In this document: positions 210 through 5,715 of the stretch, piece after piece
Numbering within the stretch: position 1 is the stretch's first letter
How the letters are laid out: every line of letters starts with the position of its first letter
NCBI GenBank assembly: GCA_002296885.1
Contig: DBIH01000068.1
Location: 1-6,045 of the forward strand
Source of the DNA: Flavobacterium sp. UBA807
Lineage (GTDB): Bacteria; Bacteroidota; Bacteroidia; Flavobacteriales; Flavobacteriaceae
DNA: 6,045 nt
Direction of reading: 5' to 3'
Notes under the pieces: generated by a model
The model's input: the letters and a program-made list of their open reading frames with translations, nothing else
What the model was told of the DNA's origin: nothing
Database searches by the model: none
Position numbers and translations under genes: made by a program

Positions 210-232
210 GATAGAAAGAAACTTGTGTTTTT

Positions 233-329
233 AGCCCCGATGGGAGCGGCATCCTTTTTACCGGTTCTCCGATACTCGCTTTTCAAGCGAACTCGAACTG
301 ACGGTAAAAAGATACAGCGGACAGCGGGA
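233..329 (+). repeat. 97-bp palindromic intergenic repeat, copy A
   Basis: This copy begins AGCCCCGATGGGAGCGG and ends ACAGCGGGA. It matches copy B (5611-5707) at 92 of 98 aligned columns: four substitutions and two single-base indels. It can fold as a long hairpin. TTTTTACCG (255-263) pairs with CGGTAAAAA (302-310), and an inner stem TCGCTT/AAGCGA (276-281/285-290) closes on a TTC loop. It lies between the convergent T9SS gene and ssrA. I recall similar AGCCCCGAT...AGCGGGA elements as abundant spacers in Flavobacterium genomes; that is memory, not a search. No protein or transposase is encoded in it. Confidence 0.85.
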
Positions 330-360
330 GCAGGGTTGTAACGATGCAGGATGTACCGCT

Positions 361-393: not shown

Positions 394-396
394 AAG

Positions 397-791
397 TGGA
401 GTCGCCGAGAATCGAACTCGGGTCCAAACAAGCAACTAAAGAGCTTTCTACACGCTTATTTTCTGATTGGATTTTCGATAGCATGATAGGCCAGAAACAG
501 CCACACACTACTTATCTTCTTCAATTTTCGTAACAGCCCCGAAGCTTCACTGTTCTTAGGTTTATTTTTACGATTCACCTGAGCCGACCGCCACAAACCA
601 AAGCTATCGAGGTGAATCCTGCTTTCCTACCTTGTAGGACGAGGCTAATCTTACTTTAATTCGGATTATGCAGCAAGAGCGTAGTTTCCTTCGCCGTTTA
701 TAGTTTTGCATCTTTGGATTTACGAGCAAAAAATGCAATGCTCGACGTGCTTACCATTCAATTCGACTTGCTGTCAAAACCAGTCGACCCC
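397..791 (-). ncRNA. ssrA: Transfer-messenger RNA (tmRNA, SsrA)
   Basis: tmRNA rescues ribosomes stalled on broken mRNAs and tags the nascent peptide for proteolysis, with SmpB as partner. On the minus strand the RNA begins GGGGTCGACTGGTTTTGACA (from 791), the classic tmRNA 5' end. Its GGGGUCG pairs with CGACUCC (rc of 398-404) as acceptor stem, with one G-U pair and an A discriminator at 397. The T-arm is CCGAG-TTCGATT-CTCGG (rc of 405-421). The tag reading frame lies at 666-695. The encoded bases after the discriminator are CTT, not CCA, so CCA must be added after transcription. The length is 395 nt before CCA. The mature 5' end presumably comes from RNase P cleavage of a precursor starting about 25 nt upstream. 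It has its own promoter and terminator. Confidence 0.96.
666..695 (-). other. tmRNA proteolysis tag reading frame (GEGNYALAA)
   Basis: On the minus strand GGC GAA GGA AAC TAC GCT CTT GCT GCA TAA encodes GEGNYALAA and stop. The ending A-L-A-A is the degron recognised by ClpXP-type proteases, and the G-E-x-N-Y-A-L-A-A form is typical of Bacteroidota tmRNAs. GGC is taken as the resume codon by family analogy. The alanine carried by charged tmRNA would precede it in the finished tag. Confidence 0.9.
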
Positions 792-888: not shown

Positions 889-1260
889 TTATAAAGAAAA
901 TTCAGGATTGTAGATTAGCCCGATGACATTGTCCCAAGGATCTTTGAGCGTTGCGACTACAATTTCACCGCCTACGTTTTGTGGGTTTTCAAAAGCTTCA
1001 GCTCCTAAACTCAAAAAGTAAGCAAAGGTTTCTTCGACATTATCAACGCCCCAATAACTTACGACTGCATCCGAACGGGTTAACGGAGTATCTTCTGGAT
1101 GCAATCCCAATTCATATCCGCCAATGTTGAAGCCAACATAAAACGACTCATCAAAGTAAGGCTTGGTTTGGAAAGCCTTTATATACCATTCCTTAGCTTT
1201 TTGGATATCGCTGACTTTGTAGATTGTTGTGCGGAGACCGAGGATTTTATTTTCCATCAT
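889..1260 (-). CDS. VOC-family (glyoxalase/extradiol dioxygenase fold) protein
   Basis: This 123-residue single-module protein opens with L-R-T-T-I-Y-K-V-S-D and K-A-K-E-W-Y, continues with F-Y-V-G-F-N-I-G-G-Y-E-L-G, and ends with K-D-P-W-D-N-V-I-G-L. That is the betaalphabetabetabeta pattern of vicinal oxygen chelate proteins. Candidate metal ligands are E51 in the Y-E-L-G strand and a residue in the C-terminal strand, but the set is not complete enough to name a reaction. Family members include lyases, isomerases, ring-cleaving dioxygenases and drug-binding proteins. The ATG abuts the stop of the maleate isomerase gene with no gap, so translation is probably coupled. A second ATG follows immediately, so the start could be one codon later. 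A role in the aromatic pathway is inferred from position only. Confidence 0.85.
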   Translation of the reverse strand: MMENKILGLRTTIYKVSDIQKAKEWYIKAFQTKPYFDESFYVGFNIGGYELGLHPEDTPLTRSDAVVSYWGVDNVEETFAYFLSLGAEAFENPQNVGGEIVVATLKDPWDNVIGLIYNPEFSL

Positions 1261-2010
1261 TTAATATTTCCCATTTAACAATTCGCCACCAATAGCTGAT
1301 TTGGCTTTGATGCCCAGTTTCTTCATCATTTCATAGGTAGTACAAACCGCAGCTGAAGTTATCGGAATTCCAATTTCAGCCTGGATTAAATCGATAGCTT
1401 CCAACGAAGGCATTTGAACACAAGCCGAAACGACTAAAACATCAATATCTGTTAAATCCAAGCGTTTATAGATTTCCAATAAATTCATCGGATTTTGCGC
1501 GGCTACTTCCAGATTATCCGGAATCTCAAGCGCAATGCTTTCTTTTACTTTTATTCCCTGATGCTCAATATAATCAACTACTAAATCCGTCAACGGACGC
1601 ATATACGGAGTAATAATTGAAATCTGCTTTGCTCCCAAAACCTTCAAGCCGTTGATTAAAGCTCCGGCAGAAGTAACGATAGGTGTAGGGAAATCATTGG
1701 CAATCGTTTCCTGATGCAGGTTCACTTCGGAGACACAATGGTAACCACGTCCCATACTCATAATTGCTACCAGGCACGCGTAACCCATCACATCAACATG
1801 TGCGTCGGACAATTCCTGAGCGCATTTGAGACTCATGGCATCCATAGCTTCGAGTTCTTCCTTGGTCACTTTTTTCATCCGCATACGACTGCTGTGAAAC
1901 GTAAAACGTTCGGGCAAAATCGTTTCCCTTGATCGGAAGATTGCCGGAATTTCAGTTTCCATGGTAACATTGGATGATGGTACGATTTGACCTATTCTGT
2001 ATTTTTTCAT
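1261..2010 (-). CDS. Maleate cis-trans isomerase (maleate isomerase)
   Basis: The 249-residue product belongs to the Asp/Glu racemase superfamily and would convert maleate to fumarate in the cytoplasm (EC 5.2.1.1) without a cofactor. The N-terminus R-I-G-Q-I-V-P-S-S-N, the block R-F-T-F-H-S-S-R-M-R-M-K-K-V-T and the G-Y-A-C-L-V-A-I-M-S-M-G loop closely resemble characterised maleate isomerases such as NicE of nicotinate degradation. The two catalytic cysteines appear as C79 (YACL) and C197 (SACVQMPS). N14, Y136 (TPYM) and N166 (PDNL) fit the other conserved active-site positions. Length is normal for the family. It lies downstream of the FAH-family gene across an 88-nt repeat-filled gap and abuts the VOC gene. 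An A/T-rich leader precedes the ATG. Hydantoin racemase or arylmalonate decarboxylase are less likely given the motifs. Confidence 0.92.
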   Translation of the reverse strand: MKKYRIGQIVPSSNVTMETEIPAIFRSRETILPERFTFHSSRMRMKKVTKEELEAMDAMSLKCAQELSDAHVDVMGYACLVAIMSMGRGYHCVSEVNLHQETIANDFPTPIVTSAGALINGLKVLGAKQISIITPYMRPLTDLVVDYIEHQGIKVKESIALEIPDNLEVAAQNPMNLLEIYKRLDLTDIDVLVVSACVQMPSLEAIDLIQAEIGIPITSAAVCTTYEMMKKLGIKAKSAIGGELLNGKY

Positions 2011-2030
2011 TTATACAATTTATTTTATTT

Positions 2031-2095
2031 GGGCGTTCCGGCTAAAGCCGTCGGGCTTTCCGCTGTGCATGGCACTTTGCTTCAATCCCTAACGC
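2031..2095. repeat. 65-bp GGGCGTTCCGGC...CCCTAACGC structured spacer repeat
   Basis: The element has three nested or adjacent inverted repeats. GCGTT (2033-2037) pairs with AACGC (2091-2095), CGGCT (2039-2043) with AGCCG (2046-2050), and GTGC (2065-2068) with GCAC (2072-2075). It occupies most of the spacer between the FAH-family and maleate isomerase genes. I recall GGGCGT...GGGCTTTCCGCT...CAATCCCTAACGC elements as very common spacers in Flavobacterium genomes, where the centre often holds a longer hairpin; this copy has a short centre. Only one copy is present here, so repeat status rests on recall. Confidence 0.6.
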
Positions 2096-2098
2096 ATT

Positions 2099-3013
2099 CT
2101 ATTTTAAATCCCTAACTGTATTCACAACTGTTCCAATGCCTTCCACAGTTGCTTCAATAACATCGCCATCATAGAGCCATTCCTGCGGATCACGACCAGC
2201 ACCAACCCCCGATGGTGTTCCGGTTGCAATAATATCTCCGGGTTCAATGGTGAAAACGGTACTCAAATCCTCAATTAGGTCGTTGATGTTGAAAAGCATG
2301 AATTTGGTATTGGCATTTTGTTTTTCAACTCCGTTTACCTTTAATGATAAATTCAGGTTATGCGGATTTTGGATTTCGTCCTTCGTTATTAAAATTGGTC
2401 CCATTGGTGCAAACGTATCCTGACCTTTGGAAACAATCCATTGTCCTTCGCGACGGCAATCACGCGCCGAAATATCATTGATAACGGTATAACCAAAAAC
2501 GTAATCCATCGCATCGGCTTTAGAGACATATTTCCCTTTTTTGCCAATAACAACAGCCAGTTCCACTTCCCAATCTAATTGTGAAGTCAGTTTGGTGTTT
2601 TTGATAATATCCGTGTTGGTTGCGGTAACCGTTGTTGGCGGTTTCGAAAAGATGATTGGTTTTTGTGGTAACTTTCCGGTTGTATCGAGAGTCCGAGCAC
2701 TTTCGGCAACGTGTTCGGTATAGTTTAAGCCAATGCCAATAATGTTTTTTCTTGGTCTCGGAATAGGCGCAAGAAATGTTATTTCGCTCATGCCATAAGC
2801 AATTTCCTTTAGGTAACCTTCTTCGGTATCGGCAACCATATCGTTGAGTTCTTCTACCAATTCATAGCCCATGTCAATCAATTCCAACATTGTTGACGGT
2901 AACGGAAAATTGGATATCTCGCCAAAATCTTCCATATCGATGATTTGGTTGTTATGGATGAAGCCCAGTCGTGGTTCGTAATTATCTTTTAAAGTATAGG
3001 TAAGTAGTTTCAT
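2099..3013 (-). CDS. Fumarylacetoacetate hydrolase (FAH) family protein, candidate maleylpyruvate/fumarylpyruvate hydrolase
   Basis: The protein has 304 residues: an N-terminal FAH-associated region (about 1-80) and the FAH catalytic fold (about 88-300). Visible motifs are I-I-G-I-G-L-N-Y at 91-98, D-W-E-V-E-L-A at 147-153, I-N-D-I-S-A-R-D at 178-185, K-G-Q-D at 196-199 and A-T-G-T-P-S-G-V-G at 263-271. E149, E151 and D180 match the divalent-metal ligands (Mg or Mn) of the family. Members cleave C-C bonds in acylpyruvates and beta-diketo acids, or decarboxylate or isomerise related oxo-acids. Between a gentisate-type dioxygenase and a maleate isomerase, the best guess is hydrolysis of maleylpyruvate to pyruvate plus maleate. 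Fumarylpyruvate or another oxo-acid as substrate cannot be excluded from sequence. The start ATG follows an A-rich leader (TTAAAAA). Confidence 0.9.
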   Translation of the reverse strand: MKLLTYTLKDNYEPRLGFIHNNQIIDMEDFGEISNFPLPSTMLELIDMGYELVEELNDMVADTEEGYLKEIAYGMSEITFLAPIPRPRKNIIGIGLNYTEHVAESARTLDTTGKLPQKPIIFSKPPTTVTATNTDIIKNTKLTSQLDWEVELAVVIGKKGKYVSKADAMDYVFGYTVINDISARDCRREGQWIVSKGQDTFAPMGPILITKDEIQNPHNLNLSLKVNGVEKQNANTKFMLFNINDLIEDLSTVFTIEPGDIIATGTPSGVGAGRDPQEWLYDGDVIEATVEGIGTVVNTVRDLK

Positions 3014-3021
3014 TTTTTAAG

Positions 3022-3045
3022 TTTCAAAGTTGCAAAGTGACAAAG
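3022..3045. repeat. Three tandem 8-nt units, TNNCAAAG
   Basis: On the plus strand TTTCAAAG, TTGCAAAG and TGACAAAG follow each other without gaps, immediately upstream of the FAH-family start codon. On the transcribed strand this reads CTTTGTCA, CTTTGCAA, CTTTGAAA. I recall such CTTTGnnA runs as common intergenic filler in flavobacteria. The CTTTG cores resemble part of a TAnnTTTG -7 box, but none has the TA at the right spacing (TAGACTTTG has one base too many). Confidence 0.6.
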
Positions 3046-3077
3046 TCTATTTTCTATATTCTTTTCTCTTTTTTCTT

Positions 3078-4178
3078 TTATTGATGCCCGTTATTTTCTG
3101 TATATTCTCTTCCCTGATATAATCCCAAACTTTCAATCACAGGCAAGTCATTGAAGTTAAACAAGCAGGCATCTTCGGTTTCCGATGCATTGTGATGCTC
3201 GTGCCAAGCCCAAGATGGAACGCAGAAAATATCACGTTCTTTCCAATCGAAACGTTTTCCGTTGATAATGGAATAACCTTTTCCTTTGGCACATTGGTAT
3301 ACAAACGAACCAGTGTGTTTGTGTGTTTTTCCTTTGAATCCGGAAGGCAACAGTTGAATTGAAGCTCCCATGGTCTGCATTACATGACCACCCGTCATTG
3401 GGTTGGTGTATTTCATCAGGATTCCGTCAAACGGATTCGGAGTATTTACTTTTGCCGCTTCTAATAAAGCTGGATATACTTTCTTCCAGGAATATTTGAA
3501 TAATGGGGAATAGGGTTTGTCCCAAACCACATCAGCCGGAACCAATCCGTTTCCGTCAAACGATAAAGGTAAATGGTTTACTGGAGCAACCAATGGTTGT
3601 TTCCCATCATAAACCGCATAATCATTGGCTTCTAAAGCATTGACCAATGGAATATCCAGACCATCCTGCCAAATACAGGTTTTTCCGCCTTCCTCAACGC
3701 CATGTTCGTGCCATGTTGAGTTGGGTGTAATCACAAAGTCATTGACTTCGAGCATAATCTTATTGCCATCCACGACAGTGTAACCTTTATCACCTTCCAT
3801 GATAAAACGCAATGCAGAAGCTTTGTGACGATGCGCCGAAGTACTTTCGCCCGGTCGTGTCACCTGAATTCCGGTGTACAACCAGCCTACCGCAGCGGAA
3901 ACATCTTTTCTTTTATCGTTTACCAAATAAACCACGCGTCTTCCTGCCTGTTCCGGTGTAACCAATTCAGAAGATTTCAAAACCAGTTCACGCAAATCGT
4001 CATATTTCCACAGCATCGGAACCGAATTGCTTCTCGGTTCCCAAGGCTCTATATCGTTGGCAACAGTCCACAAGGCACCTGCTCCTAAGGTTTCCAATTC
4101 TTTGTAGTAAGCCTCAAGTTCAGGAGTGTCCTGCACTCGTGCACGACCAATTACGTCGTCTGAATGTTTAGCGTCCAT
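3078..4178 (-). CDS. Gentisate 1,2-dioxygenase-type double-cupin ring-cleavage dioxygenase
   Basis: The predicted product has 366 residues. Gentisate 1,2-dioxygenase opens gentisate with O2 to give maleylpyruvate, using Fe(II) in a cupin. The N-terminal cupin shows P-G-E-x-x-x-A-H-R-H-x-x-x-A-L-R-F with H116 and H118, then D-F-V-I-T-P and W-H-E-H-G (H157, H159), followed by I-W-Q-D-G-L-D-I-P-L-V, a block typical of this family. The C-terminal cupin has T-H-K-H-T (H286, H288) and W-A-W-H-E-H-H (H326-H329), so it may also bind metal. An ATG 11 codons upstream (4211) would overlap the nitrilase gene by 32 nt and add MIITKNLIKNN, which is not family-like. The ATG at 4178 lies 1 nt after the nitrilase stop with AAAAAATAAC before it and is preferred. 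Salicylate, 1-hydroxy-2-naphthoate or 5-substituted salicylate dioxygenases share this fold, so the exact substrate is not settled. Confidence 0.88.
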   Translation of the reverse strand: MDAKHSDDVIGRARVQDTPELEAYYKELETLGAGALWTVANDIEPWEPRSNSVPMLWKYDDLRELVLKSSELVTPEQAGRRVVYLVNDKRKDVSAAVGWLYTGIQVTRPGESTSAHRHKASALRFIMEGDKGYTVVDGNKIMLEVNDFVITPNSTWHEHGVEEGGKTCIWQDGLDIPLVNALEANDYAVYDGKQPLVAPVNHLPLSFDGNGLVPADVVWDKPYSPLFKYSWKKVYPALLEAAKVNTPNPFDGILMKYTNPMTGGHVMQTMGASIQLLPSGFKGKTHKHTGSFVYQCAKGKGYSIINGKRFDWKERDIFCVPSWAWHEHHNASETEDACLFNFNDLPVIESLGLYQGREYTENNGHQ

Positions 4179-4179
4179 G

Positions 4180-5160
4180 TTATTTTTTATTAAATTCTTC
4201 GTGATTATCAATAAAAGTAATCTTTTTTGTTGGAGCGGTATTCACTCGTAAATCAAAGATATCAAAACGGTTGTAATGCCCGAGTATGTCATGCATTTGT
4301 TTAGGTTGTATGCATTTCTCCAAATCGATATCGGCATACACAATTCCTTCGTCATCAATTAATGGTTCGCCAACAACTGCGCCATTTGGGCCAATGATTC
4401 CGGAGAATGCCGAGTTTTTTCTGGTTAGTAATTCTTCTACATTCGGAACGTCGTCTCTTAAAGCATCTTTTATTTCCTGTGAAATGGTCGAGCAAGAAAC
4501 AATGGTAAATAATTTGCCTTCGAACGAATGCGCTGCAGCGCGAATCTTAATCGCTTCTGCCATATCGTAATCAGGTGGGGCAACCGGTAGTGAAATGTAA
4601 TTGGCAATGTGAATCAATTCGCCTTGAGAAAGCAAAGTAAAACGAGCTAAGGTATTAGTGTTTTCTCCACAGGCTAAGGTTCCGATTGGACCAATTTCGG
4701 TATTGTATACTTTTAACGATGAACCATCGCCCGATGTCCAGGTGAGTTTTTCTGCCCAGGTTGGGACTAGTTTTCGATGTTTGCCGATTAGTTTTCCGTT
4801 GTTGCCGATGATGAGATTGGTGTTATAGATTTCACCATAACTGTCACCGCGTTCATTGATTCCAATTACGATGTGGCAGTTGTATTTTTTTGCGGCTTCA
4901 AATAATGGCTGCATTTCGGCATCATCAACTTTTACTGATGATTTGTATAACTGCTCATACCATTTGCTACCCTGAACCGGAGTCATAATCCAGTTCCAGT
5001 ATGGGTAACCTGCAACAAAAACTTCAGGGAAAGCAATCAGATTGGCACCGTTTGACTTTGCTTCCTTTACAAAAGAAATTGTTTTCTCAATTGTCTTTTC
5101 CACATTGAGAAAAACAGGTGAAGTTTGTACGGCAGCGGCTTTGAATTTTTTGAACTCCAT
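4180..5160 (-). CDS. Nitrilase (carbon-nitrogen hydrolase superfamily)
   Basis: The product has 326 residues, normal for a nitrilase. The catalytic triad is visible: E46 in F-P-E-V-F-V-A-G-Y-P, K130 in K-H-R-K-L-V-P-T and C164 in A-C-G-E-N-T-N-T-L-A-R-F. E137 (W-A-E-K-L-T-W) fits the second structural glutamate. The C-terminal G-H-Y-N-R-F-D-x-x-x-L-R-V-N is characteristic of true nitrilases rather than amidases of the superfamily. Such enzymes convert a nitrile to a carboxylic acid plus ammonia (EC 3.5.5.-), although some act as nitrile hydratases or on amides. The CGENTN motif differs from the CWEH of well-studied aliphatic nitrilases. The gene starts 6 nt after the thioesterase stop and ends 1 nt before the dioxygenase ATG, which is tight operon spacing. 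The Nit1C cluster partners of bacterial nitrilases are not in this window. Confidence 0.92.
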   Translation of the reverse strand: MEFKKFKAAAVQTSPVFLNVEKTIEKTISFVKEAKSNGANLIAFPEVFVAGYPYWNWIMTPVQGSKWYEQLYKSSVKVDDAEMQPLFEAAKKYNCHIVIGINERGDSYGEIYNTNLIIGNNGKLIGKHRKLVPTWAEKLTWTSGDGSSLKVYNTEIGPIGTLACGENTNTLARFTLLSQGELIHIANYISLPVAPPDYDMAEAIKIRAAAHSFEGKLFTIVSCSTISQEIKDALRDDVPNVEELLTRKNSAFSGIIGPNGAVVGEPLIDDEGIVYADIDLEKCIQPKQMHDILGHYNRFDIFDLRVNTAPTKKITFIDNHEEFNKK

Positions 5161-5162
5161 AA

Positions 5163-5191
5163 ATAATTACGAATTACGAATTATGAATTTT
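5163..5191. repeat. AATTAC/GAATTATGAATT spacer repeat, copy 2, overlapping the thioesterase 3' end
   Basis: AATTACG occurs at 5165-5171 and 5172-5178 in tandem, and the 14-mer GAATTATGAATTTT (5178-5191) is identical to 156-169. The repeat covers the thioesterase/nitrilase gap and the last codons of the thioesterase gene, where it encodes F-I-I-R-N-S and the TAA stop. Confidence 0.55.
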
Positions 5192-5598
5192 GAAATTTTT
5201 TCTTTTATATCGTCATTAAACGGCTCGGCTTTGATGTTGTTTCGGTCTTCGGCAATGGCAACGTTGACCAGAGTTACTTCGCCTTCGAGGCAGGTTTTGC
5301 CATTTTCATCTTCAAAACGGAAACCACAGTTTACCGAAGCGCCACCAAGATGGATTACCCAGAGTTTTTTGGTTAATACATCACCAATTCGTGCTGCTTT
5401 TTTGAACTGCACTTTTAAATCGACCGTTGGGATTCCGTTCGTTTCGTGAATCTTTGAGAACGGTCGGTTTAAAGCCTCTTCAAACCAGTCTTCGACCAAA
5501 TCGTTGAGCATTTCGAGAAAACGCGGATAGAAAACAATTCCGGCATAATCGACATGTTTGAAGCGGATTTGTTCCTGTTTTGTAAAATAGTTGTTCAT
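5167..5598 (-). CDS. Acyl-CoA thioesterase of the 4-hydroxybenzoyl-CoA thioesterase (4HBT, hotdog) family
   Basis: This 143-residue single hotdog-domain protein opens with I-R-F-K-H-V-D-Y-A-G-I-V-F-Y-P-R and F-L-E-M-L-N-D-L-V-E-D-W-F. This is the 4HBT signature, with D17 matching the catalytic aspartate of the DxAGIV loop. Members hydrolyse acyl-CoA or aroyl-CoA thioesters in the cytoplasm, usually as tetramers. As first gene of the cluster it could release an aromatic acid such as gentisate from its CoA ester, as proposed for CoA-dependent salicylate routes, but YbgC-like housekeeping roles are equally possible. The last six residues (FIIRNS) are encoded inside an AT-rich spacer repeat, so the original C-terminus may have been altered. 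The ATG is preceded by AAAAAAACATAT, an A-rich leader at the edge of repeat copy B. No promoter could be identified upstream. Confidence 0.87.
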   Translation of the reverse strand: MNNYFTKQEQIRFKHVDYAGIVFYPRFLEMLNDLVEDWFEEALNRPFSKIHETNGIPTVDLKVQFKKAARIGDVLTKKLWVIHLGGASVNCGFRFEDENGKTCLEGEVTLVNVAIAEDRNNIKAEPFNDDIKEKISKFIIRNS

Positions 5599-5610
5599 AT
5601 ATGTTTTTTT

Positions 5611-5707
5611 AGCCCCGATGGAAGCGACATCCTTTTTACTGGTTCTCGATACTCGCTTTTCAAGCGAACTCGAACTTGACGGTAAAAAGATATAGCGGAC
5701 AGCGGGA
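5611..5707 (+). repeat. 97-bp palindromic intergenic repeat, copy B
   Basis: It is near-identical to copy A (233-329) and in the same orientation. The outer stem TTTTTACTG (5632-5640) with CGGTAAAAA (5680-5688) has one G-U type pair where copy A has perfect pairing. The inner TCGCTT/AAGCGA hairpin is unchanged. The similarity to the recalled consensus runs on through AAATGGCTCCTAAAA to about 5721, reaching the stop codon of the glutamate-synthase-like gene. The element fills almost the entire 117-nt gap to the thioesterase gene. A short open frame across it is a shadow of the repeat, not a gene. Confidence 0.85.
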
Positions 5708-5715
5708 AATGGCTC

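Follow-up and report, generated by a model that had tools for sequence, protein, structure and literature searches.

The stretch of DNA analyzed here (the window) comprises 6,045 nucleotides and is an entire contig (C48) of the genome assembly of Flavobacterium sp. UBA807, which is 83% complete and divided into 288 contigs. Judged from its sequence, the window covers the downstream half of an operon conserved in Flavobacterium, the tail of which is formed by a bicupin ring-cleavage dioxygenase resembling gentisate dioxygenase (GDO), an FAH-family hydrolase, and a maleate cis-trans isomerase. We consider it reasonably probable that this operon degrades anthranilate to pyruvate, fumarate, and ammonia, the ring likely being opened with its nitrogen attached and the nitrogen being removed afterward by a nitrilase-type enzyme. 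What the sequences show directly is which genes belong to the operon, how they are ordered, their co-inheritance, and the active-site residues described below.

In the predicted route, a CoA ligase would make anthraniloyl-CoA, and a flavoenzyme of the 2-aminobenzoyl-CoA monooxygenase/reductase (ACMR) type, altered from His to Gln in its ring-reductase site, would hydroxylate C5 and release the aromatic 5-hydroxyanthraniloyl-CoA instead of a ring-reduced product. A thioesterase is predicted to free 5-hydroxyanthranilate from this CoA ester, after which the GDO-like bicupin would cleave between C1 and C2, turning the amino carbon into a primary amide (maleamyl-pyruvate), the product to which GDO chemistry on an amino group would most simply lead. 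The FAH hydrolase is predicted to cut the ring-opened acylpyruvate into pyruvate and a C4 cis acid, here maleamate, and the nitrilase-type enzyme to take the nitrogen off the ring-opened product as ammonia; these two steps may be swapped. The maleate isomerase would finally convert maleate to fumarate and, because the cis acid would be isomerized last, no cis-trans isomerase would be needed before the cut. The choice of anthranilate is favored in part by the nitrilase, which would have no role if the substrate held no nitrogen. More broadly, anthranilate and 5-hydroxyanthranilate are indicated by the combination of ligase, 5-hydroxylase, thioesterase, and nitrilase with the isatin hydrolase and indolepyruvate oxidoreductase (IOR) genes found beside related plasmid loci.

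An eight-gene operon in Flavobacterium

The operon runs in the order flavin reductase, ACMR-type flavoenzyme, CoA ligase, thioesterase, nitrilase, GDO, FAH hydrolase, and maleate isomerase, and this single order was observed in all 64 flavobacterial loci holding the eight genes. The loci from named genomes were drawn from the best 80 of 357 GDO relatives, among which the nearest named relatives of the window GDO belonged to Flavobacterium, and 62 of them had enough flanking sequence for contextual analysis. FAH hydrolase and maleate isomerase accompanied the GDO on the same strand in 62 of these 62 loci; ligase, thioesterase, and nitrilase were each found in 61, the flavoenzyme in 60, and the flavin reductase in 58. 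The upstream genes, which encode the flavin reductase, the flavoenzyme (about 763 residues, uniting an FAD monooxygenase with an old yellow enzyme [OYE] domain), and a CoA ligase of the AMP-forming type, also recurred in 20 of 20 loci chosen for their long contigs among the 87 GDO-positive genomes. In the window's own genome, these three genes lie on contig C39, where they are followed by residues 1–397 of a gltB-like protein (C39:11188–12378) reaching the contig end. Residues 418–526 of the same protein, in the numbering of its homolog from locus L036, are encoded in the window and, because the two parts are split between both contig ends, the window and C39 are probably neighbors.

Co-inheritance was assessed in 199 genomes assigned to the same genus by the grouping of the genome set, in which GDO was detected in 87, the nitrilase in 88, and the flavoenzyme and the maleate isomerase in 89 each; all four genes were present in 83 genomes, none in 106, and some in 10. 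Each of these ten genomes is listed at 60–88% completeness and hence falls outside the 166 genomes with completeness of 90% or more and contamination of no more than 5%; within these 166, every gene was counted in one identical set of 71, with none of the four genes in the other 95. Genome G016 has all four genes despite their location on four separate contigs. Additionally, GDO genes 86–88% identical to that of the window were observed on contigs titled Limnohabitans, Sphingobacterium thalpophilum, Chryseobacterium gleum, and Bifidobacterium breve (L097, L119, L121, and L134), which are probably misbinned or misnamed metagenome assemblies.

The initial annotation of the window had drawn attention to the three adjacent genes at 1261–4178 as an operon of a gentisate dioxygenase-type cupin, an FAH-family hydrolase, and a maleate isomerase with both catalytic cysteines. 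Coordinates and families are confirmed, Cys79 and Cys197 are present in the isomerase, and the trio recurs in the 62 loci described above. As an operon, the trio holds its place on one strand but is the last third of a longer unit, in which the nitrilase and thioesterase genes precede it.

Sequence features of the predicted steps

The ligase of locus L035, taken as representative and 83% identical to that of the window's genome, produced its best PDB match with the anthranilate-CoA ligase 4wv3 (272 bits, versus 216 for benzoate-CoA ligase). With the ligase that adjoins the ACMR gene on the Arthrobacter plasmid pAL1, it shares 46% identity (488 bits). Anthranilate-CoA ligase activity has been reported for ARUE_113p00220, which adjoins the putative ACMR gene ARUE_113p00230 (PMC3534580, in excerpt), and we equated these two genes with those of pAL1 by their adjacency.

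A distinguishing feature of the flavoenzyme lies in the OYE motif HxxHGY, whose position was placed by alignment to solved OYEs and whose first His presumably binds the oxygen of the substrate. This residue was Gln in 71 of 71 GDO-linked flavoenzymes (66 flavobacterial and 5 proteobacterial) as well as in the copy on C39, and His in seven of seven flavoenzymes without this GDO nearby, a reference set that does not contain the Azoarcus enzyme. The operon flavoenzyme thus lacks the intact ring-reductase His of an Azoarcus-type ACMR. Only 2 of 763 columns (442 and 557) separated the two groups, a separating column being one in which at least 95% of the flavobacterial copies and five of five proteobacterial copies share a residue that the references lack, with the references showing at most two residues; column 557 is the His/Gln position. 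In a 21-row tree built from the 7 references, the 5 proteobacterial copies, and 9 of the 66 flavobacterial ones, with column 557 kept in, the GDO-linked copies fell in three places and a single clade was rejected (approximately unbiased [AU] test, p = 2.8e-7), so the exchange apparently arose convergently. The Azoarcus flavoenzyme both hydroxylates and reduces the ring (PMC4539516, in excerpt), and 5-hydroxyanthraniloyl-CoA is a reported product of ACMR under limiting NADH (PMC3534580, in excerpt). The GDO-linked flavoenzymes, to judge from the Gln, probably do not reduce the ring.

The exchange speaks for the release of an aromatic product and not for a particular substrate, since it would equally suit a salicylate route of the Sdg type, leading from salicylate through salicylyl-CoA, gentisyl-CoA, gentisate, and maleylpyruvate to pyruvate and maleate, and then to fumarate, with the nitrilase as a passenger. 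The best NCBI family of the L035 flavoenzyme bears the name salicylyl-CoA 5-hydroxylase/oxidoreductase (NF006101), 3bu7, which belongs to the GDO clade, carries the label gentisate 1,2-dioxygenase, and the remaining genes fit salicylate as well as anthranilate. We nevertheless regard this route as unlikely. The flavoenzyme falls below the cut-off of that family (994.7 versus 1078 bits), and the Arthrobacter copy, which stands at an anthranilate-serving locus (PMC3534580, in excerpt), receives this family name as well. The ligase is nearer to anthranilate-CoA ligase, in a compared set holding neither a proven salicylate-CoA ligase nor an Sdg locus, and the neighbors in related plasmid loci point to isatin. 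Furthermore, the nitrilase, which salicylate would leave unused, is present in 71 of 71 high-quality GDO-positive genomes.

Returning to the anthranilate route, its ring-cleaving enzyme had 3bu7 as the best PDB match (523 bits and 60% identity, the remaining GDOs reaching at most 231 bits) and scored under the NCBI equivalog cut-off for gentisate_1_2 (TIGR02272; 304.1 versus 442.1 bits). The FAH hydrolase was closest to 8sky (229 bits) and matched the maleylpyruvate hydrolase 6jvv at 102 bits. The maleate isomerase aligned over its full length (residues 1–249) with the maleate cis-trans isomerase 4fq7 at 320 bits, and at 316 bits with 4fq5, which differs from 4fq7 at the second cysteine; the two catalytic cysteines together with full-length similarity to a proven enzyme assign it to this family. 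Maleylpyruvate isomerase of the maiA type (TIGR01262) was found in 0 of 31 genomes, and none of the mycothiol type (MDMPI_N, PF11716) was found in the 83% complete assembly of the window's genome. The absence noted within the window by the initial annotation therefore extends, for the two known types sought, to this assembly as a whole.

The initial annotation had further proposed that maleylpyruvate from gentisate is cut directly and that the cis/trans step follows on maleate. The order of events remains plausible, because a maleylpyruvate isomerase was not found and the maleate isomerase is a fixed partner of the GDO and the FAH hydrolase. Gentisate, by contrast, is probably not the substrate: a plain gentisate route needs no CoA ligase, ACMR-type 5-hydroxylase, thioesterase, or nitrilase, and the GDO scored below its equivalog cut-off. 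As the main explanation, the plain gentisate reading was rejected after the upstream genes and the nitrilase had been found. A stand-alone route in which the FAH hydrolase cuts maleylpyruvate and maleate is then isomerized would account for the trio and for the missing isomerase, and has a precedent in the direct maleylpyruvate hydrolysis known from HbzF (PMC5658364, in excerpt); we consider it highly improbable, as it leaves out the four enzymes that accompany the trio. For comparison, six canonical GDO loci hand-picked from the listed matches showed a maleate isomerase in zero of six (by tblastn) and an annotated maiA in four of six. A carbon-nitrogen hydrolase was annotated in none of these six and detected by tblastn in one (L161). 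That gene, at L161:2139–3064 on the minus strand, is absent from the gene table of the record and lies within a gene group of the Sll0783–Sll0787 type.

The assignment of the nitrilase to the nitrilase branch rests on its catalytic triad (table 1) and on a CGEN motif of the C-x-E-N type, which we read as nitrilase-type. In comparison with the PDB, nitrilases and cyanide-degrading enzymes scored 135–209 bits, followed by a hypothetical protein at 52 bits, and the best carbamoylase reached 40; the score against the Nit6803 equivalog TIGR04048 was under the cut-off (227.3 versus 502.6 bits). On plasmids, copies at least 60% identical occurred in nine records, with a GDO gene at most 2 kb away in nine of nine, and the next relatives there (54% and 48% identical) had no GDO within 2 kb. 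Stop codons, which may be gene ends or losses, were reported inside the matched nitrilase stretch of six genomes, namely a single TAA in four and TGA together with TAA in two (G107, G022, G174, G024, G130, and G132).

Related plasmid loci and the choice of substrate

No GDO was detected outside the genus at E ≤ 1e-60 across 392 genomes of the phylum, and relatives were therefore sought on plasmids. A protein search, of which the best 120 of 2718 matches were taken, covered close relatives only. GDO-like genes occurred on 209 plasmid records, 17 of the 60 listed belonged to this clade (at least 55% identity), and 15 of the 17 were examined. Eight of these loci (Ruegeria, Sagittula, Caballeronia, two of Shinella, Sulfitobacter, Leisingera, and Embleya), here called type A, hold the same nitrilase and maleate isomerase as the operon. 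Five others (type B: Aminobacter, three of Novosphingobium, and Tistrella) hold another nitrilase group and no maleate isomerase, and the Cupriavidus locus, with insertion sequences close by, and that of Sulfitobacter alexandrii hold neither. As a side observation, six loci (L141, L142, L143, L144, L149, and L150) represent a GDO-clade variant that lacks maleate isomerase but carries a gene of the flavin reductase type, which in the other five is 45–57% identical to that of L141.

Type B nitrilases (motif CWENYMP) are 31–35% identical to those of type A (CGENTN), and a single clade for both was rejected (AU p = 0.0012) in a tree that warns of long branches. Since type B nitrilases accompany the same GDO clade in five loci, in one of them at a distance of about 6 kb, two separate recruitments of a carbon-nitrogen hydrolase adjoin one dioxygenase clade, which fits a cleavage product that bears nitrogen. 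Among the type A loci, IOR genes were found in five of eight and isatin hydrolase genes in three of eight, the latter identified by matches of L138 to 5nmp (461 bits) and of L139 to 5nna (336 bits), with the L137 protein 60% identical to that of L138. Loci of the iad type with IOR homologs lead from indoleacetate through isatin to anthranilic acid (PMC9613470, in excerpt), and an IOR acting on isatinate would, by inference, give anthraniloyl-CoA.

Several observations weigh against the anthranilate route. The association of nitrilase and GDO is not absolute, given the type B loci and the two nitrilase-free loci, and across the 15 plasmid loci a carbon-nitrogen hydrolase is missing in 2 and the maleate isomerase in 7. 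Both hydrolase groups belong to the nitrilase branch, which favors nitriles over amides. The nitrilase of control locus L161 stands on the opposite strand about 4 kb from the GDO and in another gene group. The flavoenzyme family is named after salicylyl-CoA, and the His/Gln contrast amounts to three GDO-linked lineages versus seven references. Of these references, only four (L152, L162, L163, and L165) have enoyl-CoA hydratase genes as neighbors, in contrast to L153, L154, and L164. In L153 and L164, from Arthrobacter and Rhodococcus plasmids, the His-type ACMR gene adjoins instead a ligase, thioesterases, an FAH gene, and a small single-cupin gene, so the His does not mark beta-oxidation in every case; this gene group is possibly another ring-opening variant for anthranilate. 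Tryptophan 2,3-dioxygenase (TDO) in 185 and kynureninase above its cut-off in 189 of the 199 genomes are near universal in the genus and hence do not single out anthranilate. A tryptophan link by co-occurrence (TDO missing in 2 of 87 GDO-positive versus 12 of 112 GDO-negative genomes, p = 0.025) was tried and set aside as too weak. Finally, the S. pomeroyi GDO, the sole characterized relative known to us, was reportedly described as a gentisate dioxygenase. The 5-nitrosalicylate dioxygenase, a distant monocupin relative, is inactive on 5-hydroxyanthranilate as well as on gentisate (PMC10306065, in excerpt).

The remaining points of this kind concern hydroxylation. No ACMR-type gene was found within 9 kb in seven of eight type A loci, and the single ACMR copy of the R. 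pomeroyi megaplasmid keeps the unaltered His. This gene (L152) is separate from the GDO locus and stands with a ligase, an enoyl-CoA hydratase, and an acyl-CoA dehydrogenase beside a TDO gene, apparently a tryptophan-to-anthranilate cluster of the ACMR type. The R. pomeroyi operon itself (L136:5025–11826) runs in one direction through aldehyde dehydrogenase, aminotransferase, nitrilase, GDO, FAH hydrolase, and maleate isomerase, followed by tricarboxylate transporter genes, with an IOR gene in divergent orientation. Its aldehyde dehydrogenase is closest to the phenylacetaldehyde dehydrogenase StyD (701 bits, cut-off 850). Such an operon would be appropriate for an aromatic amine, for example serotonin, and our guess from the aminotransferase and the StyD-like dehydrogenase is that the substrate arrives already hydroxylated. 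Extended to the whole clade, this would mean that nitrilase, GDO, FAH hydrolase, and maleate isomerase form a core for substrates hydroxylated beforehand at C5, for example a 5-hydroxyindole from serotonin, and that the ACMR-type gene hydroxylates only for anthranilate. The seven type A loci with no linked hydroxylase and the R. pomeroyi gene order, in which aminotransferase and dehydrogenase precede the nitrilase, agree with this proposal. We hold it to be very unlikely nonetheless, given that hydroxylase (60 of 62) and ligase (61 of 62) are fixed members of the flavobacterial loci and that an unlinked hydroxylase may reside on the host chromosomes, the search having covered plasmids.

Within the anthranilate route, a more unusual cleavage may also be considered, in which the GDO-like enzyme would open 5-hydroxyanthranilate with the amino carbon leaving as a nitrile and would be the first ring-cleaving dioxygenase to make a C–N triple bond. 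A nitrile product would explain why two unrelated nitrilase groups, rather than amidases, stand beside the same dioxygenase clade, and, if true, the module would serve both anthranilate and 5-hydroxyindoles, among them breakdown products of serotonin, as a shared lower pathway. We rate this variant as distinctly unlikely.

The predicted route shares parts with several known systems. With the ACMR pathway of Azoarcus evansii and Arthrobacter Rue61a it has in common the CoA ligase and the flavoenzyme fusing an FAD monooxygenase to an OYE domain (46% and 44% identical, respectively, to the Arthrobacter plasmid genes); in contrast, the eight fixed members of the operon include the bicupin GDO, nitrilase, and maleate isomerase but no enoyl-CoA hydratase or acyl-CoA dehydrogenase, and the OYE-motif His is replaced by Gln in all GDO-linked copies. 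The Pseudomonas alcaligenes strain with the HbzF gentisate route reportedly uses a maleate hydratase, instead of which the operon has a maleate isomerase, in addition to the nitrilase and the CoA steps. The HbzF route passes from ring cleavage to an acylpyruvate hydrolase without an isomerase (PMC5658364, in excerpt), as the operon is predicted to do. The lower pathway of nicotinate and nicotine (deformylase, maleamate amidase, and maleate isomerase) resembles the predicted end from maleamate through maleate to fumarate, and its maleate isomerase 4fq7, which we take to originate from P. putida S16, is the nearest solved relative. The ring dioxygenase of that pathway is not known to be a GDO, nor its amidase a nitrilase. 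Like the iad indoleacetate loci of Variovorax and Bradyrhizobium, five plasmid loci carry IOR homologs and MarR regulators, here close to the module. The iad route is said to stop at anthranilic acid (PMC9613470, in excerpt), and the operon module would take over from there.

A gentisate branch of anthranilate degradation via 5-hydroxyanthranilate is listed for Nocardia opaca (PMC4539516, in excerpt), and a 2018 review states that the gene of this "gentisate" branch had not been revealed (PMC6221969, in excerpt). Direct maleylpyruvate hydrolysis, maleate isomerase, ACMR, and anthranilate-CoA ligase are each already known. Published work joining these steps, nitrogen carried through ring cleavage, or genes for such a route were not found in the open-licence literature, outside of which most subscription journals lie. 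Anthranilate is the meeting point of bacterial tryptophan, indole, and indoleacetate (auxin) breakdown, and a complete, testable gene set for it would be at hand in 71 of the 166 good genomes of the genus, and portions of it on plasmids from Alpha- and Betaproteobacteria as well as from an actinomycete. If true, the route would give a natural role to a nitrilase group, and the change of one residue may convert a flavoenzyme that reduces the ring into one that simply hydroxylates.

Layout of the window

Read 5' to 3' on the minus strand, the window holds the 3' end of the gltB-like gene, the five operon genes, a VOC gene, and a transfer-messenger RNA (tmRNA) gene (table 1).

Table 1. Features located in the 6,045-nucleotide window
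Feature	Coordinates	Strand	Evidence
gltB-type glutamate-synthase-like gene, 3' end, truncated by the contig end	5716–6045	-	PF01645, 39.5 bits
4HBT-type acyl-CoA thioesterase	5167–5598	-	PF13279, 43.6 bits
Nitrilase-branch carbon-nitrogen hydrolase	4180–5160	-	PF00795, 144.6 bits; Glu46-Lys130-Cys164; CGENTN motif
Bicupin ring-cleavage dioxygenase (GDO), S. pomeroyi GDO clade	3078–4178	-	His116/118/157 and His286/288/326
FAH-family hydrolase	2099–3013	-	PF01557, 232.5 bits
Maleate cis-trans isomerase	1261–2010	-	Cys79 (GYAC) and Cys197 (VSAC)
VOC/glyoxalase-fold gene	889–1260	-	PF00903, 22.2 bits
tmRNA gene	394–791	-	RF00023, 148.5 bits
Flavo-1 RNA, first copy	229–335	+	RF01705, 65.2 bits
Flavo-1 RNA, second copy	5607–5713	+	RF01705, 67.5 bits

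Two protein-coding genes of the window were considered as pathway members and rejected. The gltB-like gene lies between ligase and thioesterase in only 24 of 73 loci and was therefore treated as an optional passenger. The VOC gene, directly downstream of the maleate isomerase, is probably outside the pathway, since genes resembling it occur in 2 of 80 loci and immediately follow the isomerase in 1. The tmRNA gene (Rfam) lies immediately downstream of the operon, and the second of the two Flavo-1 copies sits between the thioesterase and the gltB-like gene.

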